This document shows, piece after piece, positions 2,944 to 62,000 of a DNA stretch of 64,000 nt. The position numbers and the translations under genes are program-made. The stretch is from assembly GCF_040183065.1 (NCBI RefSeq), contig NC_091125.1, positions 118,592,121 through 118,656,120 of the forward strand, in the 5' to 3' direction. Source of the stretch: Periplaneta americana (lineage: Eukaryota > Arthropoda > Insecta > Blattodea > Blattidae). Under the pieces are notes generated by a model. The model had not been told where the DNA came from, did not search any database, and saw only the letters and a program-made list of their open reading frames with translations. The number at the start of each line of letters is the position of its first letter. The first letter of the stretch is position 1.

Positions 2944-3176
2944 TGAGCCGTTCAGAGCAGAAGTGGTGTAAGTCAAGAATGGATAATGAGGGTTAAAGTA
3001 AACATTCTGTAAAATACAGCGCAAAGTAGCAATTAATATTCAATTTATTTAAACTATTAGTAGCCAGTGGATAGCACGAAGGACTTTGCGCTATATTTTA
3101 CAGAATTTTTACTTTAAACCTCATTACCCAATTTTGACTTACACCACTTTTGCTCTGAACGGCTCAAATACTCGTA
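2944..3176. mobile_element. Fold-back MITE, family 1, copy A
   Basis: The ends are long inverted repeats. The left end starts TGAGCCGTTCAGAGCAGAAG and the right end, reverse-complemented, starts TGAGCCGTTCAGAGCAAAAG. Similarity runs about 85 bases inward to the GCGCAAAG motif. There is no coding capacity. Related copies lie at 43670-43900 and 49411-49485. Confidence 0.85.
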
Positions 3177-3433
3177 GTTCTCGGAGATGTAACGGACAAA
3201 GAACAATGGATTTTGAAGAGTGACAAAGTTCTTAAGGAGGGAAATAAAGCTGTGGGTTCCCTTGTTTTAATTTTACGTACATGATGAAAACTTAGCCGAA
3301 TAAGATACTACGCCTACTGCTAATAATAACGATAATGATAAACAAAAATGTGGTTTATTTCACTGCAGTGCATAAGGAAAGTGGAGACGTAGTGAGTTGG
3401 CTATTTGATTTTAATTACTAAATGACAAAACAC

Positions 3434-12300: not shown

Positions 12301-14577
12301 ATATACGCCATATCACATCCAGATAATGCACAAGCTTGAACCTGAGGATTTTACAGTTCTAAACGCAATGTTTTTCGACTTGTTAGATGCAGTCGAGAAT
12401 GAAAACCTGATGAACAATGTGCTGTTCAGTGATGAAGGGCCGTTTATGTTCGCTGAGCGAACAATTACAGGGAATACCTACCTTGACATGCTACAACACT
12501 TCTCGGTACCCCAGCTGGAACAGGATGGAATAACAGACACCGTTGTTTTCCAGCAAGATGGCGCACCACCCCATTTTGCCTTAATTGTAAGAGAATACCT
12601 CAATGAACACTTTCCCAACAGGTGGACAGGTCGTGGCTCACCGAGAATTTGGTCGTCCCACTCTCCAGACCTGATGTCCTTAGACTTTTTCGCCTGGGAG
12701 TTCATTAAGTCTAAGGTGTCTGGATTACGGGTCGACACCCTATAGGAATTACGACAGCGAATAACTGCAGCAGCAGACGGGATCACGCCCGCTATGCCGA
12801 ACAAAATGTTCCGGTCTACGGAAGAAACATGGAGGCGCTCCCTAGACTTAGAGGACAACCACATTGAAATGCACTAAATGTAGTTTTTGGTATAGTATGT
12901 TTCAGAAGTATAGGACTTTTGCAATTGCATGCCATTTTCCATAAACTGTCAAGAGACTTTTGAATCACCCTGTATTTGGTTACATAAATATTACGTTACG
13001 TGTGGAGTAGTGGTATAACAAAATAGAGGAAAAGTTTGGAAAAGACGAGACGCGGTCAAGTTTTTTTTTCTATTTTCGAGATTTATGCATTTAACAAACA
13101 AATAGCATATAGGATACTATTTTTGAACGATGATCGTAGTTTAAATTTAAATAAATAACCATTTATCGTGTTGTAGAATCAACTTATATGGCATGACAAC
13201 AACAACAACGATAAGTATGAAATAACACACCATCGTTGGAAATTTTTAATTAAAAATATCACTAAAAATTCGAATATCTTTATCATGAATATGCAATACT
13301 TACCTTTCTACACTGCAGAGAAAATAGTAGGTATGTAGGCTAATGTATGAAAAATTGCAGCTTTACAAAAATAAACTATTTAATACAATTCAATAATAGT
13401 TATTACTATATTTGAAGTAGACTATATTATATATTCACAAAGTCCTTTCTAGTAATACAGTAGGAGGTGAAGAAATTCGTGCTGAGATAAGTACTGTACG
13501 AATGGAGGGGGATGTTTTTTATACAACTGCAGGAAAATGTACTCGTATGAAAAGTAGAGAGACCCAATTGGAATAGCATTGGGATAATACCACAGTCACG
13601 AAGATTGGGTTGTGAGGGTGCTAGGAACAATTGACTATGCTGGTACTATTTCGCATTGTTTGTAATGAGGCGATATTAGCGATCCTAGTGGTTAGCAACT
13701 ATCTATGGATGCATATTTACTATGTATTGAGCTTCGTGACTGTATATACTAGGTTGTGCTAATACTTAAAATATAATGAAGCGGAAGACAGAAAAGAAAA
13801 GAGAGACGAAGGAAAGATTTCTACTTACTGAACACTGGATCTATGAAGTATGGCACTATTCTATTAGGCCAACGATAGTTTGTGTTGATGAGGCCGTTTC
13901 TAAGTCCAAGCTTCTGTTCTTCAGTTAGTATGATATCTCCTTCAAAATGGCCGCTCAGCTCCCATGCATTTTGTTTTTCTCTGACATCTGGAATAATGGA
14001 ACAGTTAATTTTTATTTTGAGATTTAGTGACCGTAATCAATAAAATTAAATTTGTTTTTATTTTTAAGTATACATAGGTATATTATATGACCTTAATTGG
14101 AGTGGAGGCAAAGTTCAAATACGGTACATCTTTGAATCAAAATATCACTACGTTTCAATTATTTATTAATATGTTTTTATTTCTCCTTTTCGTCAAGCAT
14201 CTCAGAAATGTCCTATATTACGTGTATTGTACAGAATTTAAGTAACTTCACTTTTGTGATTTTATTTATGGAGGTAATGATGCTTTGAAAGCTTCGAAAA
14301 TTTTTCTTGCAATTGACGTTCAACAAGATGACTTAAAAAATGTACAAACTATTTTTTTCTTGTAGCTCCGGCGCGTGAATAACCCACAAACAATTATTTC
14401 TTAACTGCTGTTTACTTATAATCATACTATCCTCTCATTTTAAGCGACATCAAATAATTTTATTGTAGAAGTATTTTTCCAGAATTAATAAAATTACTGT
14501 ATGAGCGTCACCTCACCTACGGCTCTTCCCCTACAACTTGTTACAGCTATCGCCAATATCAGCACAAAAATATACAT
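3539..14577 (-). CDS. Astacin-family zinc metalloprotease (M12A), six exons, complete
   Basis: Secreted zinc endopeptidase of the astacin family. Exons join in the order 14577-14517, 13978-13829, 9648-9494, 8477-8333, 5889-5756 and 3619-3539, giving 726 nt and 241 residues. Each junction is GT-AG with matching phase. It begins with a hydrophobic signal peptide (MYIFVLILAIAVTSC). A short propeptide follows with FEGDIIL, the FxGD aspartate-switch motif that ligates zinc in the zymogen. The catalytic domain starts near NYRWPNRIVPYFID. It carries the zinc site HELLHTMGFYH, the Met-turn SIMHYSAYAF and four cysteines at the positions of the two conserved astacin disulfides, the last ending the protein (MYDC). 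There is no EGF, CUB or ShK domain, so this is the minimal form, as in insect digestive, hatching or seminal astacins. Its tissue role cannot be told from sequence. Introns carry SINEs, MITEs and DNA transposons. Confidence 0.93.
4045..4390 (-). pseudogene. Transposon-derived zinc-finger/CGGBP1-like fragment
   Basis: In astacin intron 5. Minus-strand reading gives VLCYFICAKHK and NTKKHRKRV (remnant of a C2H2/BED-like finger), then SRQSEFLLDVCEVMVGSNIP and FHKLDNSFFQQFIEKYI. The pattern SNIP.HKL.N..F..F.EKY is common in hAT-related transposon proteins that resemble CGGBP1. One frameshift lies near 4225, and the reading ends at TAA shortly after the expected ESTLRK-like position. It is probably a dead copy. 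Confidence 0.55.
4405..4630 (-). repeat. tRNA-derived SINE
   Basis: Minus strand: CCTGGGTAGCTCAGTCGGTA (A box) and GGGATCGATACCCGG (B box region) form a tRNA-like head of about 75 bases near 4430-4500. Its unique flank (4510-4630) recurs in inverted orientation at 4765-4862. Confidence 0.75.
4695..4870. repeat. Rearranged second SINE copy
   Basis: 4700-4760 repeats the B-box half of the neighbouring SINE in the same orientation (AATTGTTCCGGGGTCGGGTA). From 4765 to 4862 the neighbour's flank returns inverted (AACAGAAAACCACAATTGAA). The copy is therefore a junction of direct and inverted pieces, with the tRNA A-box part deleted. Confidence 0.65.
4871..5755. other. Astacin intron 5, remaining part
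   Basis: Apart from the SINE pieces and the zinc-finger fragment I see no further element or exon here. Small ORFs lack recognizable motifs. Confidence 0.45.
5756..5889 (-). CDS. Astacin gene exon 5: Met-turn
   Basis: 134 nt, from a TTTTTTGCAG acceptor to a GTAAGT donor. It encodes YDYGSIMHYSAYAFSKNG, with the Met-turn and the Tyr that is the fifth zinc ligand in astacins. Confidence 0.93.
5960..6320. repeat. Minisatellite, left block (about 60-bp unit)
   Basis: Degenerate tandem units built on GAAAAGGCACAATAGGCAGG followed by CAAAAAAGGCAATTAAAACA and TGAAAAAACATTGTAAATCTA. About five to six copies, ending in a long A run. The same array continues at 7405. Confidence 0.9.
6321..7404. mobile_element. 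TA-flanked DNA transposon of unknown subfamily, non-autonomous
   Basis: Perfect 24-bp terminal inverted repeats begin CAGGGACATCATTTTATTTT, and weaker similarity continues inward. Removing the element and one TA rejoins the 60-bp minisatellite unit (AAATC-TA-GAAAAGG), so TA is the target duplication. That points to the Tc1/mariner/pogo superfamily. No transposase motif is readable in the 1084-bp body. Confidence 0.8.
7405..7684. repeat. Minisatellite, right block
   Basis: Four to five further units of the array seen at 5960-6320, interrupted by the TA-flanked element. Confidence 0.9.
7685..7712 (+). mobile_element. Single mariner-type terminus
   Basis: TACAGGGTGATTATAAAGTA has the terminal form of the CAGGGTG mariner-like elements found elsewhere in the window. 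No partner end or transposase is visible in the next kilobase, so it is a fragment. Confidence 0.4.
7713..8332. other. Astacin intron 4 remainder
   Basis: No exon, ORF with motifs or terminal repeat is recognized here. Confidence 0.4.
8333..8477 (-). CDS. Astacin gene exon 4: zinc-binding site
   Basis: 145 nt. It encodes LTLGAGCFQVGTIEHELLHT and the rest of the HExxHxxGFxH motif, then RDNYVEIIWDNIEAG. The three His residues and catalytic Glu are intact. Confidence 0.95.
8732..8804 (+). tRNA. tRNA-Cys-like pseudogene or SINE head
   Basis: The D arm, an anticodon loop reading CTGCAGA (anticodon GCA) and a T arm CCGGGTCGAACCCGG resemble insect tRNA-Cys. The acceptor stem has mismatches and the T loop lacks one T (GGTCGAA), so it is probably a degenerate copy. 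A T run follows at 8806. Confidence 0.5.
8805..9493. other. Astacin intron 3
   Basis: AT-rich intron sequence. No element boundary, RNA gene or coding motif is recognized. Confidence 0.4.
9494..9648 (-). CDS. Astacin gene exon 3
   Basis: 155 nt, from a TGCAG acceptor to a GTGAGT donor. It encodes the helix AQILKAVDQYHAQTCIRL, with the first conserved Cys, and the segment YVHIRGGSGCSSSVGR, with the second. Confidence 0.92.
9801..10416 (+). mobile_element. Short DNA transposon with transposase HTH fragment
   Basis: The ends form an imperfect inverted repeat of about 40 bases around TTTCGGAAGGCGGTCGTCTG (left) and ATTCGGAAGGCGGTAGTCTG (right, reverse-complemented). Between them 10006-10230 encodes KRQVLHRQARKIVFKVYNYF and TAEACGLGLRNVQRILLV. 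This is an N-terminal HTH seen in IS630/Tc1-type transposases (R.IVF.VY.YF ... TAEA.G.S.RTV.RI). No catalytic domain is present. It lies in astacin intron 2. Confidence 0.65.
10529..10705. mobile_element. MITE, probably Harbinger type, truncated
   Basis: It begins after TTA with AGGCTGGCTCACAATAAATC. Internal imperfect inverted similarity links GGGAACGGAAACGACAAAGA with TCGTTCTCGTTTCCG near the right. The expected right terminus (TTTATTGTGAGCCAGCCT) is missing, so the copy is cut at about 10705. Confidence 0.5.
10706..11910. other. Astacin intron 2, unannotated part
   Basis: ORFs of 129 and 92 codons overlap on opposite strands near 10726-11115. Neither has recognizable motifs. No other element is visible. 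Confidence 0.4.
11911..12974 (+). mobile_element. Mariner-like transposon, D41D type, internally deleted
   Basis: A perfect 28-bp inverted repeat including the TA borders bounds 1064 bp (left TACAGGGTGATTCAAAAGTC). The body encodes a plus-strand transposase in pieces. It has an HTH region (TASTRRLRRELDVSQSTVRR), a first catalytic Asp in VLFSDEGPF, a second in VVFQQDGAPPHF and a third in SPDLMSLDFFAW. 41 residues lie between Asp 2 and Asp 3, the spacing of the insect DD41D (rosa-like) clade. The internal part between HTH and Asp 1 is shortened and frames are broken, so it is inactive. It lies within astacin intron 2. Confidence 0.85.
12197..12745 (+). pseudogene. D41D mariner transposase, remaining ORF
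   Basis: A 182-codon open frame covers the HTH remnant and most of the DDE_3 domain. DEGPF, QQDGAPPH and SPDL...DFF are all readable. The frame stops in the C-terminal region (a TAG at 12743-12745), after which sequence such as WRRSLDLEDNHIEMH continues in another frame to 12878. Confidence 0.8.
12975..13590. other. Astacin intron 2 sequence beside exon 2
   Basis: AT-rich sequence with no recognized gene or complete element. Confidence 0.4.
13591..13759 (-). mobile_element. MITE of the CACAGTC family (P-like), copy 1
   Basis: About 169 bp, in reverse orientation to the copy at 45476-45660 and clearly homologous to it (shared CTAACCACTAGGATCGCTAA and TGTTCCTAGCACCCTCACAA). It is flanked by TAATAC repeats at 13585-13590 and 13760-13765. 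There is no coding capacity. It sits about 70 bp downstream of astacin exon 2 in transcript direction, inside intron 2. Confidence 0.75.
13829..13978 (-). CDS. Astacin gene exon 2: propeptide and mature N-terminus
   Basis: 150 nt, from an AG acceptor to a GTAAGT donor. It encodes the ELSGHFEGDIIL propeptide motif and the start of the protease domain (YRWPNRIVPYFIDPVF). Confidence 0.9.
14517..14577 (-). CDS. Astacin gene exon 1: signal peptide
   Basis: ATG at 14577-14575 opens a 20-codon signal peptide exon ending in phase 1 at a GTGAGG donor. It is the only Met followed by a signal-like core upstream of exon 2. Confidence 0.85.
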
Positions 14578-18434: not shown

Positions 18435-18812
18435 GGAAGGTGTCGCTGACGTGGAAGCAGAAAACTCATTATCTATAAAAAAAGGCTGTAGAGGGAAGAC
18501 TGTGTTGCAGAAGGAGACTTCAATTTCGTGGAAGGTGTCGCTGACGTGGAAGCAGAAAACTCATTATCTATAAAAAAGGCTGTAGAGGGAAGACTGTGTT
18601 GCAGAAGGAGACTTCAATTTCGTGGAAGGTGTCGCTGACGTGGAAGCAGAAAACTCATTACCTATAAAAAGGCTGTAGATGGAAGACTGTGTAGCAGAAG
18701 GAGACTTCAATTTCGTGGAAGGTGTCGCTGACGTGGAAGCAGAAAACTCATTATCTAAAAAAGACTGTAGAGGGAAGACGGTGTAGCAGAAGAAGACTTT
18801 AATTACGTGCCG
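18435..18812. repeat. Tandem repeat, 93-95 bp unit, four copies
   Basis: Copies begin GGAAGGTGTCGCTGACGTGG at about 18435, 18530, 18624 and 18717. Units 1-3 are nearly identical and differ mainly in the length of an A run. The fourth decays at its end. High identity suggests recent amplification. Confidence 0.95.
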
Positions 18813-32905: not shown

Positions 32906-33608
32906 TATAGAATGTTTAAAAAATACGGGGCATAATTTCAGGTATGTATTTCCCACATGTAGATAATCAAAATAGTTCATTACAACACGTGTCCGGAAAT
33001 GCTTCATTTCCGAGTTATGGCCTTCACAACATTGAAATTCACCGGAACGTTTTTCTTTCCGCAAGTCGTTGTCATTACAGAAGATGTTCAAAATGTCCAC
33101 CTTCTGCTTGAATACAGACCTCACATTGATGTCTCATTGACCTGCGAACACGATCCCAAACTCCAGGAGTATTGCGTATGTCCTCAGAACATGCCACAAT
33201 TCGATTCCGAAGGGATTCCAAATCAGGCACCGGAGACGAATAAACCAATGATTTTAAATGGCCCCACAAGTAGAAATCGAGAGGGTTCAGATCAGGTGAG
33301 CGTGGAGGCCAAGCAATTGGGCCACCTCTACCTATCCATCGATCAGGGAACCTTCGATCCAAGTACGCCTACACAACACTGAATGTAACCTTCGCCTCGG
33401 AATGAACTGTCAGATTGCCCTCTTAATGTCTCCTTTGACGGCAACGACCTGCGGAAAGAAAAACGTTCCGGTGAATTTCAATGTTGTGAAGGCCATAACT
33501 CGGAAATAAAGCATTTCCGGACACATGTTGTAATGAACTATTTTGATTGTCTACATGTGGGAAATACATACCTGAAATTATGCCCCGTATTTTTTGAAAC
33601 ACCCTGTA
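32906..33608 (-). mobile_element. D41D mariner-like transposon with about 170-bp inverted repeats
   Basis: The two ends match for about 170 bases (outer right end, reverse-complemented, TACAGGGTGTTTCAAAAAAT; left TATAGAATGTTTAAAAAATA). Together they make up nearly half of the 703-bp element. The middle encodes the C-terminal part of a transposase on the minus strand. Such long repeats are unusual for this group, whose other copies here have 28-46 bp. Confidence 0.85.
33075..33362 (-). pseudogene. D41D transposase C-terminal fragment
   Basis: 95-codon open frame: DRRFPDRWIGRGGPIAWPPR, SPDLNPLDFYLWGHLKSLVY and CSEDIRNTPGVWDRVRRSMR, ending HFEHLL. It carries the third catalytic Asp. Asp 1 and Asp 2 are deleted. 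The stop codon falls inside the inverted repeat. Confidence 0.85.
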
Positions 33609-43140: not shown

Positions 43141-43669
43141 CCAATAATCCACGTTGTAGGTAGCCTACGTATTGTGTTCTGTACAACATTTATTACTTAT
43201 CAGTTACCTATTTGTATGTCAGGAAGGACAGTTTAAATAAAAACAAAGTAAATACCTGTTACAGTATATTATTTTTTTGCAGAGATCATATGTGTAAATG
43301 TGTAACCATTCCGATTTTGGATAATATATCTACAGTTTTTAATGCAAGTAATTCCATAATTTTTGTATTCGCGTTTTTTTCTTTATATTTTTCAAAAGTT
43401 GAATGTTATATATCATTCAAGTAGGTATCATGGTGTTAATTTTGCAAGAATTCATGGAGTATAGTAATCCTTTTGCAAAATATTCACTTCTTGAATAAAT
43501 CCAGACTGTGTCGATAAATTTCTGATGTGTTGGTGTAGATTCAAGCGGCAGACGTATTAAGTTCTCAAGAAATAAAAGAGCCTTTTTAAATTTAATATAA
43601 AAAGCAATCTTTTCTGTAATAATTTGGATGACTGTTATTGGTGTTGATTTTATATTCCCAGTGATTATT

Positions 43670-43900
43670 TGAGCCGTTCAGTGCAGAAGTGATGTAAGTC
43701 AAAATCAGGTAATGAGGTTTAAAGTAAAAATTATGTAAAATACAGCGCAAATTAGCAATTAATATATCCTTCATGCTATTCACTGACTATTAATAGTTTA
43801 AATACATTCAATATTAACTGTCACTTTGCGCTGTATTTTAGAGAATGTTTACTTTAACCCCTCATTACCCATTTTTGACTTACACCACATCTGCTCTGAA
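43670..43900. mobile_element. Fold-back MITE, family 1, copy B
   Basis: Begins TGAGCCGTTCAGTGCAGAAG. The right arm ends TTACACCACATCTGCTCTGA, missing the last bases of the terminus. Homologous to 2944-3176. Confidence 0.85.
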
Positions 43901-45475: not shown

Positions 45476-45660
45476 CCACAGTCTAGTATATACAGTCACG
45501 AAGTTCAATACGTAGTGAATATGCATCCTTAGATAGTCGCTAACCACTAGGATCGCTAATATCGCCTCATTACAGACAATGCGAAATTGTACCGGCACAG
45601 TCTATTGTTCCTAGCACCCTCACAACTGAAGCTTCGTGACTATATATGCATGACTGTGGT
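45476..45660 (+). mobile_element. MITE of the CACAGTC family (P-like), copy 2
   Basis: About 185 bp with ends CCACAGTCTAGTATATACAG and, reverse-complemented, ACCACAGTCATGCATATATA. It is flanked by 7-bp repeats GGCTCAG (45469-45475 and 45661-45667). Its first 20 bases match the P-like element at 42867. The interior matches the MITE at 13591. Confidence 0.8.
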
Positions 45661-49390: not shown

Positions 49391-49410
49391 TGTGTGACAC
49401 TAACAATATA

Positions 49411-49485
49411 TGAGCCGTTCAGAGCAGAAGTGGTGTAAGTCAAAATTGGGTAATGAGGTTTAAAGTAAAAATTCTGTAAAATACA
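49411..49485 (+). mobile_element. Fold-back MITE, family 1, one arm only
   Basis: TGAGCCGTTCAGAGCAGAAG through GTAAAATACA matches the left arm of the element at 2944. The rest is absent. Confidence 0.8.
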
Positions 49486-50095: not shown

Positions 50096-53000
50096 GTAAG
50101 TATTGTAACCTGAACTACTCCAAATACACACTATACTGCGTGTTCAGTTCAAAATGTCTCATGGCTCGCTGTATGACGTCATGTGGCTAGCCGATGAGCC
50201 TAGACAATTCAATCTTCCTACACTTCTGCAGAGGCGTATTACCTATGTGCCAGAGAAGTTGCCTAGCAAGTATGGCATTCATTCTGAAGAGTACTTACCG
50301 ATACGTACGGTAACTCCAGTAGTGGCAGGAATGTGAACTGTTTGGAAACACATACTGGGGTGAGTTTTTTTTCTTACTGTCAGGATATGGGGAGAGGGTT
50401 AAGACGATTACTTACGTACAGTATTTGTTGACATTAACTTCGACTGTCAACACGGACACGGAACATTTTATTTGTGTTGTGGAATGTTGCTGTACGCAAC
50501 CGATGATAAGAAATACTCTGCGTACGACTTGCCCAAGCAAAACACAATTCGAAAGAGGTTATGGTAGCACACAGACTGTACAGACCACCATCTGTTGCTA
50601 CGACGTTCAAGTCATACCATACACGTTCTCAAGTTCAGATTGAACGCCTTGATTAATAGGCAACTTCTCTGACATAAAAGCTGAAACTTGCTTCAAATCG
50701 CTGACCCACAACAGTGACGTCATGACACACTTTGAAATGAACACCCAGTATATGCAGTATCCACAGACATTAATCACCCATTGAAGGCCCTAATGTCACC
50801 TTTGATTTGTGTTACATTAGTGGACAAAATTTTTGCAGGAAATTAGTCGATTTTATTACACTCGCCTCTTTTTCTGTTGCAGGCACGGCACCAGTTGTAC
50901 CATTCCTGCCTATTTATGCCCGCCAGCTGGGGTTTTCCAGTGTAGTTGTAGGCACAATCTACACAGTACTGCCAATCACAGGGATGCTTGCAAAACCAAT
51001 ATTTGGAGCAGTTGCTGATCACTTCCAGCTCCAGAAGACACTGTTCTTGGCTTTTCAGATCTTGACAGCCATCACCTTCTTTGGCATTCAGTTTATACCA
51101 GAAATTCAAATGGAGAACCTCAACCAAGTGACTTTGGACTGTGATGGCACTGTCTTCTTCAAGACGTGTAGTGATGATATGGATAAGTGTGCAGAAGCAC
51201 GAGTGATAGCTGAATCATCAGGCAATGACACTGTATTGTGCGAGGTCAGTAAGTGATCATCCTCTAACTAGTTTTTTTCTTTTTAATTACTTTACATAAA
51301 AATTTCTTTCATCATTCGTGGTTCTTGGGAGAATGTGTTGCTCACTCTTTGTTCATATATCTTAGGCTGGTATTCATAGTCGACACTTTCGATTAAAGTG
51401 TCCTTTGGAAGACGCAAAGTATCACTTTTCCGTTGCACAGTCGACACTTTGGTGCAAAGGAACACTTTGGATGAAAGTGTAGTTCCGACCACACTTTGAG
51501 CCGAAAGTGACACTTTGTAGAAAAATGGCGGACATCTTGGAAGTTGTCGAATTATTAGAACGTGCGGAAGAGATGGCACAATTAGTGGACAATGTACAAA
51601 TTAGAGATAGGCCTAAAGACAATCCCATGGAATTTTATAATGATATAGAACTTAAAAAAACGGTTCCGATTTGATAAAGAAACTTATTGAGATTGCTTAT
51701 ATTTTCGATGACTGGTTGACAAAAACGAATAATAGACGTTTGCCAGTGCCTCCAATAATACAGTTATTGACTGCATTAAAATTCTATGCTACAGATATGT
51801 ATGTACCATACATTAATATGTATAATATTATAGTTCAGGTATTTCTGTAGTATATTTATAACCTCAATTCGATAAAGTGATATGTAGGTAGATATGCCTA
51901 TATAACCTATTTTTTATTACTGAAAATAATTTTTTAACTTAAATAATATTAAACTAACTTCAATTTAATGTAGGCATAACTATCTTAAATTAGCAATGGG
52001 AGACCTCACGTGCCTGCCTTCTAAGCAGATTCCGTAATTATATTGGGTTTAAAATGATTTTGATTTTTGTTGACTACCTGTATTTTGAGATAAGATTTAT
52101 CTTGATGTTGATATAATCATTACTGTTTTGATACGAGTAATATATATTTTCACGCCGGTAAGCAATACATTTACTGTCTCTAGTTCATGTGCAGTCATAA
52201 CCTCACCATGAAAAGAGATCTTATACTATTAGGCCTAGTTTGTTTTGCATTGTAGAAACATTTGGCATTCAAAATATTCCTGAAGAGCAGGCAATAATGG
52301 AAACGAGAGAGAGAAAATAGTAGTAGTAATAATAATAATAATAATAGCAGTAGTAATATGTTTATTTAATTCTTTTTTACTTCTATTCACTATTCATGAA
52401 AAAGACAAAAATGAAAATAACGGAAATAACACGATACAGTGGAACCTCGATTTATTGTTCCTGGATGTATCATTTTCCCGGATCCATCATTCAAATTCGT
52501 TGGTCCCTGAACATATTCTATTTAAACTATGACTATAAAGCCCGCATCTATCGTTCCTCGATTTATCGTTTTCCCGCATCTATTGGCCAGATTTTTTAGC
52601 CCTGAAGTGTGTAAATCCAGGATTGATCAGTTTTAAGAAATAGCAACAAGCTTACAAATGTTTGTAGCAGTTGATGTCTTCAGAATGTTGTGCTGCAAGC
52701 TCCAATTGTGAAGTTTTATGGTTATTGGCCTGCTTACCCACCGACCTTCCTCACAGCTTGCCTGACAAGACAATGTAGAAGGGTTCATGTGTCCTATCGA
52801 TCGTTTTCTATTGTAAAACATCCCAGTCCACGCTTCCACCAAGTTGTGTACGCAGTCTATCACACGTGTTCGATTCTCGACAGTTCGTATTTTTAACTTG
52901 GCAGTTTCTAATCTGATTTTCTCAGATATGGCATTTCCGTGTAAAAAAGTTCGGACTTCAGAAGAACGACTTCATATCATAGAAGAGGTGGAGAAAAATC

Positions 53001-56000
53001 CAACAGAGAAGAGGATTGACATTGCTAAGCATCTTGGCCTGCCACCTTCAACTCTAAATTGCATAATGGCAAAGAAAATAGAAATCAGACAGCAGGCTGA
53101 TAAGTGTGGAACAGCAGCCAAAAAGAGGAAGACAGGCAAAGAGCCAACTTACAGCGAGCTCGAAAATGTCCTCTTTTCCTGGTATCAACAGGCACGAGCA
53201 TCAGGCATTCCCATTGATGGGACCATCTTGAAGGAGAAATCTCTGAAAATAGCTGAAACAATCTGCATTGAATGGCTGGATCTCTTGTTTCAAACAATGC
53301 CATGGCTTGGTGTTTAAGAAACTGGCTGGGGAAAGTGCTGCTGTGGATACCAGCGCCACGGATCTCTGGTTCCAAAGACTCCCGGAGCTGCTGGAAGAGT
53401 ACGAGCCTCGGGACATCTATAATGCAGATGAAACAGGCCTCTTCTTCAACTGTCTTCCAGACCGTACGCTGGCACTTAAAGGAGAATCCTGTCACGGAGG
53501 CAAAAGTGCGAAGGAGCGACTGACTGTACTGCTGTGCACAAACACCGATGGCTCAGACAAACAAGTTCCCATTGTTACTGGCAAGTCTGCAAAACCACGG
53601 TGTTTCAAAAACGTGAAGAAACTACCTGTGAAATACTATGCTAATTCCAAAGCATGGATGACATCGGAGATTTTCAGAGACATTCTTCACGCTCTTGATA
53701 AATTCTTTGGTGCAAAAGGCAGGAAAATCCTCCTTTTTATTGATAATTGTGCTGCACATTCTCCAGACACATCCTCTTTGAAGAATGTGAAGGTGATGTT
53801 TTATCCCCCAAAATGCACCAGTGTTGTACAGCCACTTGATTTAGGAGTTATAAAGAACTTCAAGCAGGCGTATAGGAAGCAGCTAGTGCAGAGGGCTTTA
53901 TGTTTGATGGATGAAAGGAAAGAAGTAAAAATGAAGATAGACATACTACAGGCCATTCACTTTATTGTTTCGGCATGGCAACAAGTGACTCGGTTCACAA
54001 TTCAGAACTGTTTCGTAAAATGTGGTTACGGGGACAGAAATGAAGAGTCAGACATGTCGGAAGTCAACAGAAATGATGAAGACGAAGACTGGACTTAGCT
54101 GGAGACAGGAACCGCTGGCGTTGATTTCGACGCTTATGTGTCTGTGGACCAAGAACTCGCGACATGTGATGTGCTGTCTGTGGAAGAAATGTGTGAGGAA
54201 GTGGCGAGTGGAAATTCCATGGAGGAGGGACAATTCGACAGTGATGATAATGATGAAGTTGATCTCAAACCAGTGCCGAGTTTTCAAGAAGCACTAAGTG
54301 CGTTCGAGACCATGAGAGCGTTCATACATGCTCACGAGATCGCCGCCAGAGACCAAGTGAACATTATTAATATTGAGAAGCTACTGTTTAGCTTAGAAAG
54401 TAAAGATGCAAGTAAGCAAATGAAAATTAGTGACTTTTTTAACAAGAAATGAAGTGAGTTAATAAAAAAATCATTCATGTACCACACATTCTTTAGTATA
54501 TGAACACACGTGTGTACTATAAGTAAATTTGACTGCTTATATTCATTTTAGACAGGTTCCCGTATCAATTGTTTTCTCGTTTCCACCGTTTTTTTTTTTT
54601 CAGAAGTCCAGAACAAAACGATGAATTGAGGTTTCACTGTATATCAATGAAGCAGATACATATAAAACCTAACCTAACGATATAAATTTAATGATTACAT
54701 ACACAAAACTTAACCTACTCAGTCCAACTTAACCTAACTATATAAACTAATAGAAGATATGTAGGCTACAAAATCTAACCAAACTATATAAATCAGTGGA
54801 ACGGATACATACAAAATCTAACTTAGCGACATAAATCAATGAAAAAGATATGTACAGAACCTAATCTAACTATATAAATTAATGGATAATTATAGACGAG
54901 ATGTCGCTGAGCCAATGATTCAATTGAATTAGTTCTTTTGAATTGAATTTGAAAAAATTTTAAGGCTTTTTCCTGCATGTCTCCCTTTCTTCTGTTTTCT
55001 CTTAAACTTCTCTCTCCTAGATGTCCCTACCTCTTATTGTACCACTTCACTCCTGTCATGTCTCTATTTTTATTTTACTACTACATGTATTTTGTCACGG
55101 TCATGTAATTCTACATATCTCAAACTATACTACTATATCATACAAATCCAATTTTACTTACCTTGTCGGTTTGGATGGGATTCGTTCCTGGGACCTCTGG
55201 CACCATAATACCTCGCCTTAACACGCTCGGCTAAACAGCTACGTTGTGAAATAAAGTTTAAAATAGGTCTCTTATGTTTAGGGTAGGATTAAAGAAAATA
55301 AATAAAACAGATAAAGCAGGGTAGGATTAAAGAAAACAAATAAAACAGATAAAGCAAATTTACGTAATCTAAATTATTCTTGACGTTTAAAAAACAATAA
55401 TTTACTTGTTTATAGCAAAGATAAACAAGGAAAAATATGCATAAAGAGGACAATATTGACGAACATTATCTATGACGTCACATTTCCAAAGCAACCTGAT
55501 AAACAATAATTGTTAGTTGAAGCGCCATTTTTAAGATGGGTACTATGACGTAACGACAGTAATAATAATTTATTGCATGAGCCATGGAAAGTAAAAATAA
55601 TTATAATTTGAGAAAACTTTTCAGTAATTTGAGCAGTGAAGAAGAAGAGATTGATTTCGCCATGTCGTATAAACTAATACCCGACAAAAGTGCAAAGAAA
55701 TGTGTGAGTTGCAAATCAAGTGATAATGTGAATTGGCAGAGAAGGGTAAAATATTCAAACTATTAATTCTGTTTGAAGTGTAAAAAGTGTAAACAGGAAA
55801 CGTCTATAACCCACAACACGTGGTTCGAAAACACAAAAATAACTATACGTCAAAGCTTAGTTCTTATTTATATGTGGTTGCTTCAAACAACTCTTCAGAT
55901 AGCTGCATTAGAGGCAGAAGTTCACTTCAGTACTGCACTAGATTATTTCTGTTTCTGCAGAGAAATATGTTATGTTATAATTATACAAAATACCAAACCC

Positions 56001-59000
56001 ATAGGAGGAGGACACATCGTGGAATTAGATGAAACACATGTCTACACCAGAAAATATAAAAGGGGCAGACTTCTCAAAATCGAGAAAAATAGCGTATGGG
56101 TTTTTGGAGGTATCGATAGAGAGACGAAAGAATCGTTTGTATTGAAAGTGGAAAAAAGAGATAAAAATACCTTGATACCCATAATTAAGTCATTCATCAA
56201 ACCACATACTAAAATTATGACGGATGGTTGGAAGTCTTTCAGTGATTTGAAAGATGAAGGATATATCCATGAAATTGTGAATCACTCGATAGAATTTGTA
56301 CGTGAAGATGATCGTTCTGTGCACACCCAAAAAGTGGAACGAATGTGGAAAACGTTGAAATCGGTTTTAAAAAGAGAAGGCAGGGAAATTGAAAATGATC
56401 ATTTATACGTATTTGAGTTCCTATATCGTGAACAACAGAAACTGAAAGGAATGACTACACCCAGTGAAATGTTTCCGCAGTTTCTACAGCATATCCACGA
56501 CACATAGCCAGGGTACGGAATAGAAGGATTAAAACCTAAAGACTACATTCCTCAGCAATGAGTGATAGTGTCATACGAACAATGCTTTTTTTTAGGAAGT
56601 GTTCAATTATTGAAAGAAAAACTTGGCGAACTATACAGTGTTACGTATTATAATACGAACAATAATTGTAGGAAGTCTTCAGTTAACAGTGAATGGTATA
56701 CCTAGTGAACTATACAGCGATCACCAAGGAATCGTTCATTTATATGAACTATTGAATATTTTAATTCTGAGCGAGTTACCTACCTACATATTAAAATGAG
56801 AACAATGATTGTGAGAAGTGTTCAGTTATTAAAAGAAAAACTTAGCTAACTATAGTGATAGTGTTACATATTATAATACGAACAATAATTGTAGGAAGTC
56901 TTCAGTTAACAGTGAATGGTATACCTAGTGAACTATACAGCGATCACTAACGAATCACTCATTTATATGAAATGGTATTATTAGCAAGTAAGTTACGTAC
57001 ACTGCGTTTGTCAAATGCGCATCACCATGCTTTCGCAAAGGCACGTTTCAGTGCCCGACACCCCGCTTTTTTCATCATGTGCTACACGTCGGATCATCAT
57101 CAGGGGATACCCCGCTTTTTCCATCATGTGCTACACATCGGATCATCATCGGGGCTTGCAGCCCCGATACCCCGCTTTTTACATCATGTGTATGTAATAA
57201 ACAATAAGCAAACCATCTTCGATTACAACAGTCACCAAAGAATCGTTCACTAAAGTGAACTATTTAATTCTGAGCGTCACCAAGCAACAGGAATCGTTGT
57301 TTTAAGTGAACTATGTGAACTATTTAATTCTGAGCGAGTTACCTAGCAACAGGAGTCGTTCATTCAATTGAATCATTGACTCAGCGACATCTCGTCTATA
57401 ATTATCAATTAATGGATCAGTTATGTACTGTACAAAACCTAACCTAATTTCACCAGCAGTATCACTAACTATTCATTAAAATGTTATATATCTGAACTGA
57501 CTGAAATAATCTAAACTATCAGCAACAAAAACTAGAAACTGAAATAAAACTATTTAAATATATATTTTCTTTCTCGCGCAATCAATTGGGCTCCCAATTC
57601 GAATCACAAGCATTGTAATTTGTAGGTTATACGTAATTAATTTGTTATTGTTTGTTCACTTGTTTTGAAAGGCATTGTGGGACTTCTGTTACCAACCAAA
57701 TTGAAACTCTACACTTTGCTGGTGTAAAGTGACACTTTGTGAAGTGCACTTCTTCAATCGCCTATGAATACCGCTAATATGAAAGAGCCACTTTCGTCAA
57801 AAGTGTCACTTTGCAAAGTGGTGATATAAAGTGTCGACTATGAATACCAGCCTTAATAGACTTCTTGGAAAATGGTCTGTAAAATAGAGTAAATTGACCA
57901 GAAAATTAAAATGTTTAGACCACTATATTAATGACATGAACTGTGGTTTCAATTTTTTTTTAATTACCGTGTATTGTGATGTATAAGACACACCTCATTT
58001 TTAGGAAAAACTTAATCACTGAATATTATAACGAGTTTACAGTATTTCAAATATAAAATAATACATAGCTCTACTTTCATCAAATACCTACTATAACTAG
58101 GAAAAAATACCTTTTAATCTTCATCAAAATTCAGAAATTCATTTACAGAGCTAAAAGAAGAGTCTCTTGAAACTTCTAAATCAGAATCTGTGCTCATACA
58201 AGAAGTTGTCCTCTGTATCAAGTGCATTACTAATGCCACACTTAAATGATTTACCGTAACCATTGTCTCAGTTTTTACAGCTTCCCATTTACAAACTCGG
58301 TATTAGCATATAAGATGCACACTGTTTTCTTAGACCTATTTCCCAAGGAAAAAAGTGCGTCTTAAACTCTGGAAAAACAGTAGCTTCAGAGAGTTTTCAG
58401 TTTGCTCTACAATAGAAATACTACTAAATACTTGCAACATAATAAAAGAGCCTTGTTTGAGTTATGAATGAAGGAAATAATTTTACTTTTTTATTTTTTC
58501 TTTATACAAAGAAAAAAATACTGTGGCTCTGCAAGAAATGTACTATCACATTTTCAAGAAAGTACACTTTTCATCATTTTTGATACTCGGAAAGTGATTT
58601 ATGGCTTACTTAGGTCAGCATATACAATTACCTGTTGGTCCACAGGTGGTATTTCTTTTCCCTCTTACCATCCATTTCCCAATCAGCCACCTGGGAACGC
58701 ACCCTCTAGGGGTTACAGGCTCTCCCTACATGGGGATAAAAATATGTATTTTTTTATTTGTAACAGTATTTCAAAATTGTCAAGATTATCTCATTTTGCA
58801 ATGGCACATATGTAAAAGTGTGTTATGTGTATTTGTGTTTAATGGTCAGGACTAAACAACAAAGTTATTATCCTTCTTGCTTTCCAATATTTAATAACAA
58901 TATCTGGATGTATCTACAAGGCTTGACAAGATCTGTTATGGTCCATGTTCATATTTTCCTCTTCAGAATATACAAACATCGTGGAGATGGTAATAGTAAA

Positions 59001-62000
59001 CCATGTTTATGAAGGTGAGACTAGCCAGACAGTTCCAAAAGTATGAACAGGCAATTTTCGTGGTAACTGAAATAATTTTAGAGTTGTTCATAAATTTTCA
59101 TTTTGAATTTCTGTTCTCGTTCATTATTTTTGTAGAATAATTGATATTGACATCTCTAAATATAATATTCTTCTTAATTGACTTTTAAGAGAGTGTTATG
59201 TTTTATTTAACGATGCTCGCAACTGCCGAGGTTATATCAGCATTGCCGGTGTGCCGGATTTTTGTCCCGCAGGAGTTCTTTTACATGCCTGTAAATCTAC
59301 TGGCATGAGCCTGTCACATTTAAGCACACTTAAATGCCATCGTCCTGACCCGGGATCGACATAGAATGTTACCTCAGGCATAGAAGGCCAGCGCTATACC
59401 AACTGAGCCCACCAGGCCAACTCTCTTAAGAGAGCTTCTGTGTAGTTTTTTTTTTACATAATTTGGCACAAAGTGATAAGTGTTCAAGTTTATCTCGTTT
59501 TGTGTAGTGCATGCACGAATTTCGTCTGTTGTGTTACAGTTGTCATGTGTAGCAGATCCATGGCTGACAAAGGAGGTGTGTGAATTGTGGAAAGCTGATG
59601 TTTATTGCAACTTAACTGGAAGTAATTATTTGACTTTTGGCGCAACTGTACCCTTGAAATCTACATTGAGGGTAATCGTAACTTTCACTTTTTCAAATTT
59701 TTATTTTCATATTATGTGATATTAGGAAAGGACATATTTTTTAATTCTTAATGTCATTCACTTACGAACTTTACAAGAAGATAATTATTATAAAAGTCTA
59801 TATCTACATCAAAGATACATTTGTCATGTGTGTATGCTTATTTACTAGATTTGATTGCATTAGATAAGATAAATTAAAAAGTAGTAGGTTGTCTTAATAT
59901 AAATTAAAAAGTAGTAGACTGTCTTAATATAAATGAAAAAAGTAGTAGTAGGCTGTCTTAATATAAATTAAAAAGTAGTAGGCTGACTTCATATAAATTG
60001 CTGTACAGAGCACTTGCAAAATTAGTGATGTAGAGTGCATTGGTAAATATACTTTATGCAAACTGTTATAGTGTTGATGAAAGTTTGGCACCATGGTAAC
60101 CTTAACCAATGCATTTCAGGTAATGGTTGCATAAGTGAGGTTTTCTTTCCATTCACTTAAAGTTGAAGGAGGAGTTATGGACACGTGCATGCTTGTAGTA
60201 CATATTGTAAAACTGTTAAGACACATTCTTTGGTTGATGATTATTATCTGACATTTTTGTTACTTCTGTGAATCAGGTTTCGCAGTTTTTTTTTGTACAA
60301 AATATTTCTTTGGAAATTTATGTATTCCGAAACGTTATATTTGATATGAGTTATTCAAATTCGTGGATGATGCTAGAGTTTGTTTTTTCTACTTTTTGTA
60401 TGGAACGTGTAGATTATATATTCTTTGAAGATACTCATACAGGTGTTCTTTTGTAAAGTGCGTGTTCTGTAATCAGTCCTGTGCAGCCATCACTTATGTC
60501 GAAAATTACATGGTAATCAATCATCTTGTGTAAGAATGAATTTAAAGTACATTTTGCTGTTTTCTTTTTGATAAAAAACAAATGACGAAACTCTGCAAAT
60601 GTACTGTAACATTCTGGAAAAATGATGCAGCCTGCAGCATATTTCACTTTGTAGGCCTATAATTATTTATCTAAATATAAAATATTTTCGAATGAGTGAT
60701 AACTAAGGTAGGTAGGTATAACCTTAAAAATTATTATTTACAGATATATTGATTACTTGATTGCAGTTTGATCCCTGTCTACACTTCAGGATTAAAGAAG
60801 TATTTGTGGATCACTCAGAGCACATACCTTACTGCAAGAACCTGACTACTTCTCAATGCAGCATTCAATGTAATGATCATGCTATTACTGAGGTAACCAA
60901 CATTTTTGAGAATAAATATATTGTATATGTTACGAATTATTTTGAGTAATATAGATTTTAACATAATTGTTTCATGTAGTTATTCATATGTGACTTCACA
61001 AGCACAAGAAAAGAAAGTAGCATAATAAGTTAGAGATGAATTTGAGTACTTAGGAATGTTTGGTAAATACAGAGGATTTGTTACGAATTCTGTATCCTTT
61101 CCTTCGATACTTGCCAACGAAAGACATCCTTTCGTGAGTTTTTATTTCCCACTAACTGTTGCCATTGTTATTTCTCATATGGCAGCTACAAAGATGAAAT
61201 CATTTATCAAAACTTGCTGTTGTGGGCATATGCCCTACAACCCACATAATCCATAGCCTGTATACTGGTTTTCAGTTTTTGAACTGATAAAACAGGGACT
61301 ATTTTTAAGTGAATGCAGACTAGAGTACAAAGTACAGCATTGACACAGAGGAAGAATTGAGCATGTTACTGCGTCCTATTACTAATAAAACCGATTAAGT
61401 CCACTTTTTGTGTAAAATAAGTTACCGTAAGTACAGTCCCCAACTTGTCTTTCCATGCTCTGTATCCTAGTAAAATCGAATAAGTCGGAAATGTTATATT
61501 TTTCGAACAGTTCCTGTATGCCGTTTCATCTAAGTCCATTTTAATAATTTTGTTATCAGGGAGAAACAGCTAAGATGTTTTCACAAGTTTAACTTAGATA
61601 GCTCGAGATTATGGAAATAAAAAAGATACGTATATTAAAAAGTCCGTCACAGTGGCTCAGTGCTAGGAAGCTGGACTTATAAGTCAGGGGGTCCAGGTTC
61701 AAATCTCGCTCCACTCTATATTTATAATTTGTGTTGGCCAGAGAACAGGGGCGATTTCTCAGGACATGCTATGCTTGCTGTGCAAGCCCAATATTTTCGT
61801 AGAATGTGTATTTCTCAAAATGGGATTACGTACATTAAAATTTATTTTGATTTTTGGAATATTGTATAGGCGTAATACCATTCACAGGTTGCACACCACA
61901 AGTATCGCGATGCTTGCTCGTTTCCCAGAACTACAGGAAAGACATAGAAACAGCGAGAATATGATGCACACGCAAGTGCCTTCCTCCTTAGTCCATCCTA

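Follow-up and report, generated by a model that had tools for sequence, protein, structure and literature searches.

Nests of cut-and-paste transposons are commonplace, and they are ordinary in a repeat-rich genome of 3.2 Gb. Autonomous PIF/Harbinger elements carry a second, Myb-like gene. The target duplication given for this superfamily is TWA (PMC4482050). Merlin elements are described as having GG-tipped terminal inverted repeats (TIRs), 24-462 bp long, and target-site duplications (TSDs) of 8 or 9 bp, and internal tandem repeats are already known in some copies (PMC8101967). Harbinger and Tigger are listed among the transposons widespread in arthropods (PMC6327564), and repeats broken up by younger insertions are dealt with by REANNOTATE (PMC2672092). 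A limited literature search, which does not establish absence from print, found no published account of the locus considered here or of its three families.

Structure of the nest and its host intron

We analysed a stretch of 64,000 nucleotides from Periplaneta americana, below called the window; positions are those of the window. As read from the sequence, one intron holds an outer Harbinger element (51365-57852), which in turn holds a Tigger (52437-54639) and a Merlin (54885-57406). The features are as follows.

50883-51244, plus strand: host transporter gene, exon 2; start at an AG acceptor, end set by the frame, splice sites predicted
51362-51364, no strand: TTA, left TSD of Harbinger; from the sequence
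51365-57852, plus strand: non-autonomous Harbinger element; from TIRs, TSD and genomic family
51525-51830, plus strand: broken HARBI1-like transposase remnant, N-terminal part; frame changes within about 51645-51672
52435-52436, no strand: TA, left TSD of Tigger; from the sequence, with a single TA in Harbinger paralogs
52437-54639, plus strand: Tigger of the pogo group, Tc1/mariner superfamily, 2203 bp; from TA flanks and Pfam domains
52928-54452, plus strand: broken Tigger transposase; one frame change and one stop
54640-54641, no strand: TA, right TSD of Tigger; from the sequence
54661-54884, no strand: imperfect 43-bp minisatellite (54767-54884 by TRF); from a tandem-repeat reading
54877-54884, no strand: AATTAATG, left TSD of Merlin; from the sequence, with the site intact in 26 of the 29 Harbinger paralogs
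54885-57406, plus strand: Merlin element, 2522 bp; from TIRs, TSD and domain
55584-56507, plus strand: Merlin transposase frame; one internal stop at 55764-55766
57054-57190, no strand: short tandem array inside Merlin; length differs among the Merlin copies compared
57407-57414, no strand: AATTAATG, right TSD of Merlin; from the sequence
57853-57855, no strand: TTA, right TSD of Harbinger; from the sequence
59540-59671, plus strand: exon 3 of the host gene; placed by AG acceptor and frame, splice sites predicted, right end approximate

All boundaries and duplications proposed in the preliminary description were recovered, with TTA, TA and AATTAATG flanking the respective elements. The intron (51245-59539) is 8295 bp long with splice sites chosen by the reading frame, and on that choice the 6488-bp Harbinger occupies 78% of it, in agreement with the original estimate of about 6.5 kb in an intron of 8.3 kb. 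The region 50885-51256, at host exon 2, matches the Pfam domain MFS_1_like (E=4.1e-14), and the name MFSD6-like transporter is consistent with this match. We infer no effect of the stack on the host gene.

The stack is nothing out of the ordinary for nested cut-and-paste transposons and involves no new mechanism. As in nested elements generally, the order is read by setting the inner elements aside; the difference is that three separate cut-and-paste superfamilies are present here, the principle being the same. Relative dating by nesting is illustrated cleanly and checkably at this locus, which also serves well to test reading from sequence alone, and boundaries are now given for three element families in the P. 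americana genome.

Assignment of the three elements

The window Harbinger has a 3-bp duplication of the TWA type (TTA) and TIRs that match at 25 of 25 bases. When the Tigger, the Merlin and a single copy of the TSD of each are subtracted, it is 1753 bp long, and it belongs to a high-copy, non-autonomous family with members of about 1.75-1.87 kb. In a search of the genome (3.23 Gb) with its left end, the best 40 of 799 first-look candidates were scored; the 39 scored matches besides the window copy are 95-96% identical to it. Twenty-nine loci taken from these 39 form the sample of paralogs used below. An identical 3-bp TSD is present in 21 of the 29 (TTA/TAA in 20, CTA in one). Two paralogs (L010, L026) have both ends with unequal flanks, and in six (L013, L017, L018, L020, L035, L037) one end is altered or could not be located.

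The catalytic part of the transposase is missing from the window copy, which retains a frameshifted N-terminal remnant; in some paralogs this region can be read without interruption for about 115-132 codons. Pfam and solved structures gave no usable name for this remnant; a genomic relative identified the element. Of 1305 candidates in a genome search with the remnant, the best 150 were scored. One of the more distant matches, L069, was compared over the left end, the adjoining 1.03 kb and the region downstream. It has window positions 51361-52395 (about 1.03 kb, including the left end and the region of the remnant) in common with the window copy at 82% and, beyond this segment, encodes a DDE_Tnp_4 transposase domain (E=1.2e-25) that is absent from the window copy. 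This relative settles the identity of the element, and the Harbinger label stands. The window copy resembles PIF/Harbinger (PHIS) elements in its TWA-type duplication and in a left end common to a DDE_Tnp_4-coding relative, and differs from them in lacking the catalytic part and in containing a 43-bp minisatellite.

This minisatellite had been listed among the contents of the Harbinger alongside the two inserts. Its presence was confirmed, and its status has been refined: it is found, at varying length, in ten of the eleven plus-strand Harbinger paralogs, being partial in L038 and absent from L035. Since it occurs in the paralogs too, by sequence comparison it is part of the Harbinger family. 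Its right edge is the point where Merlin landed.

The Tigger is flanked by TA, and its broken transposase contains CENP-B_N (1.8e-07) and HTH_Tnp_Tc5 (6.1e-07) within 52928-53314, DDE_1 (E=1.1e-45) within 53253-54095, and CENP-B_dimeris within 54099-54449. The catalytic triad is D-D-D, with 31 residues from the second to the third D. A genome search yielded 43 matches from the best 40 of 67 candidates, and 29 other copies were compared. TA is present on both sides in 24 of them; in the remaining five the left end or the flank is changed. The duplication, the CENP-B-type DNA-binding domains, DDE_1 and the D-D spacing are those of Tigger/pogo elements, and apart from the broken frame the window copy shows nothing of note.

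The Merlin has TIRs matching at 27 of 27 bases and an 8-bp duplication. Its transposase frame contains DDE_Tnp_IS1595 (E=8e-19), with D-D-E codons at 56028, 56223 and 56337 (spacing D-64-D-37-E). In these respects it resembles Merlin elements, which are related to IS1016/IS1595. Among ten other complete Merlin end pairs, the 8-bp duplication is exact in six, matches at 7/8 in one and at 6/8 in one, and shows no match in two. An eleventh pair (L002) has an exact duplication, and copies L003-L006 have none, some of their ends being damaged (one of five exact, counting L002). Several other Merlin copies have open transposase frames. The claim that all three superfamilies can be assigned therefore stands, on the Pfam domains, the duplications in other copies, the TIRs and the DDE_Tnp_4-coding Harbinger relative.

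Several minor features of Merlin copies were observed. Window positions 55280-55355, within Merlin, are a 38-bp tandem duplication that is single in the seven Merlin copies compared. Near L006 (G000:C15:39871459-39874347), two Merlin transposase frames lie less than 3 kb apart on opposite strands; one is 57% and the other 96% identical to the window copy, and they represent different families. The copies at G000:C15:171030912-171033092 and G000:C28:523993-526171 both have exact duplications; the flanks of one are the reverse complement of those of the other, and the pair may be a single copy that the assembly contains twice.

Empty sites and the order of insertion

The Harbinger paralogs provide the empty sites for both inner elements. 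All 29 are continuous through the Tigger point, 27 of them with at least 39 of the 40 surrounding columns aligned; in the other two (L027, L036) 11 nt are deleted at this point. Continuity through the Merlin point is seen in 26 of the 29; the exceptions, L017, L035 and L038, are altered or truncated there. The usual state is a single TA and a single AATTAATG where the window copy has each of them twice. The preliminary description had expected this state at empty alleles of the locus; it was seen in paralogs instead. Continuity through both points shows that the nest is real and exceeds chance.

As paralogs without the inserts exist, the Harbinger family exists in an insert-free form, and both inserts landed in the window copy or in its direct ancestor. 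Harbinger is thus older in place than Tigger and Merlin, as had been proposed.

Repeat-rich genomes can be misassembled, and the two Merlin copies on C15 and C28 may be a case of one copy doubled, so the composite could be thought of as repeat fragments misjoined during assembly. A misjoin would not be expected to produce three exact duplications where the junctions were predicted, together with clean empty sites in the paralogs, and we consider such an error extremely improbable. Another possibility is that the stack was filled elsewhere and then moved into the intron as a single 6.5-kb Harbinger. The intact ends and TSD of the outer element mean that it could in principle carry cargo. However, Tigger is present in none of the 29 Harbinger paralogs, and Merlin is missing from its insertion point in all 26 paralogs where that point can be read; the Harbinger flank (14 bases on each side) occurs at none of the 29 other Tigger copies; and GA-tipped Merlin ends, at up to one mismatch, are found at the window copy only. 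No second filled stack was seen among the sampled Harbinger paralogs, Tigger copies and Merlin ends. Transfer as one unit is very unlikely, if slightly less so than an assembly error.

Sequential insertion, with Harbinger first and Tigger and Merlin following in either order, almost certainly explains the stack. The source Harbinger would have derived by internal deletion from a HARBI1-coding element and would have borne the 43-bp minisatellite. A non-autonomous copy would have inserted at TTA in the host intron, and later, in either order, Tigger would have entered a TA and Merlin AATTAATG, both within Harbinger. Each arrival would represent ordinary cut-and-paste by a transposase of the element's own superfamily. 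The transposase genes of all three copies are now broken or lost, and the elements are presumably inert.

Divergence, Merlin tips and other repeats

One observation goes against sequential insertion: the inner Merlin has more private changes than its container, and an inner element should not be the older one. Differences from the family majority number 39/1743 in Harbinger, 51/2199 in Tigger and 43/1501 in Merlin. Private changes number 16/1735 in Harbinger (24 comparators), 13/2200 in Tigger (29 comparators) and 35/1505 in Merlin (seven comparators), or 32/1505 in Merlin with eight. In the Harbinger alignment, L017, L018, L020, L035 and L037 were left out as an end was not found, and L013 was kept despite its altered right end; the Merlin set consists of eight copies out of a longer list.

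The Merlin value with seven comparators, 2.33%, lies above the range of 1.03-2.14% (mean 1.39%) obtained for Harbinger in 200 samples of seven comparators. In a rough test, 32/1505 in Merlin against 24/1740, the Harbinger count implied by this mean, gives p=0.11. Private changes of Merlin are less frequent in the coding part (13/921) than in the remainder (19/584; p=0.026), and the coding changes, three synonymous and ten non-synonymous, give no sign of selection. The lower frequency in the coding part suggests that some of the private changes were acquired before insertion; probably they come from a divergent source lineage. Ordering Tigger and Merlin by divergence was tried and rejected. As the private-change counts of Harbinger and Tigger do not differ significantly (p=0.26) and the Merlin count is apparently inflated by pre-insertion changes, no order of these two is claimed.

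The tips of the window Merlin (54885-54911 and 57380-57406) are GA at both ends, with a private G-to-A change at position 2, whereas its relatives are tipped with GG. A genome-wide search with the 27-base GA-type end, allowing at most one mismatch, gave 43 sites: two with GA, both of the window copy, and 41 with GG. The control with the reversed sequence gave none. We read the window Merlin as a changed member of a GG-tipped family. It is possible, at somewhat less than even confidence, that the twin change is not due to chance and reflects either a lone GA-ended sub-lineage that transposed or copying between the terminal repeats after insertion. If true, this would be informative about the strictness of the Merlin requirement for terminal GG, or about how the likeness of terminal repeats is kept up.

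Other repeats were observed elsewhere in the window. An inverted repeat at 32915-33598 has 170-nt arms, 94% complementary and 344 nt apart, and has the appearance of a MITE-type or foldback element. At 18435-18809 a 94-bp unit is present in four tandem copies, with 94% matches. Dispersed repeats with inverted copies, 89-94% complementary, are found at 13594-13758 and 45477-45641, and at 2944-3178, 43663-43860 and 49399-49483.
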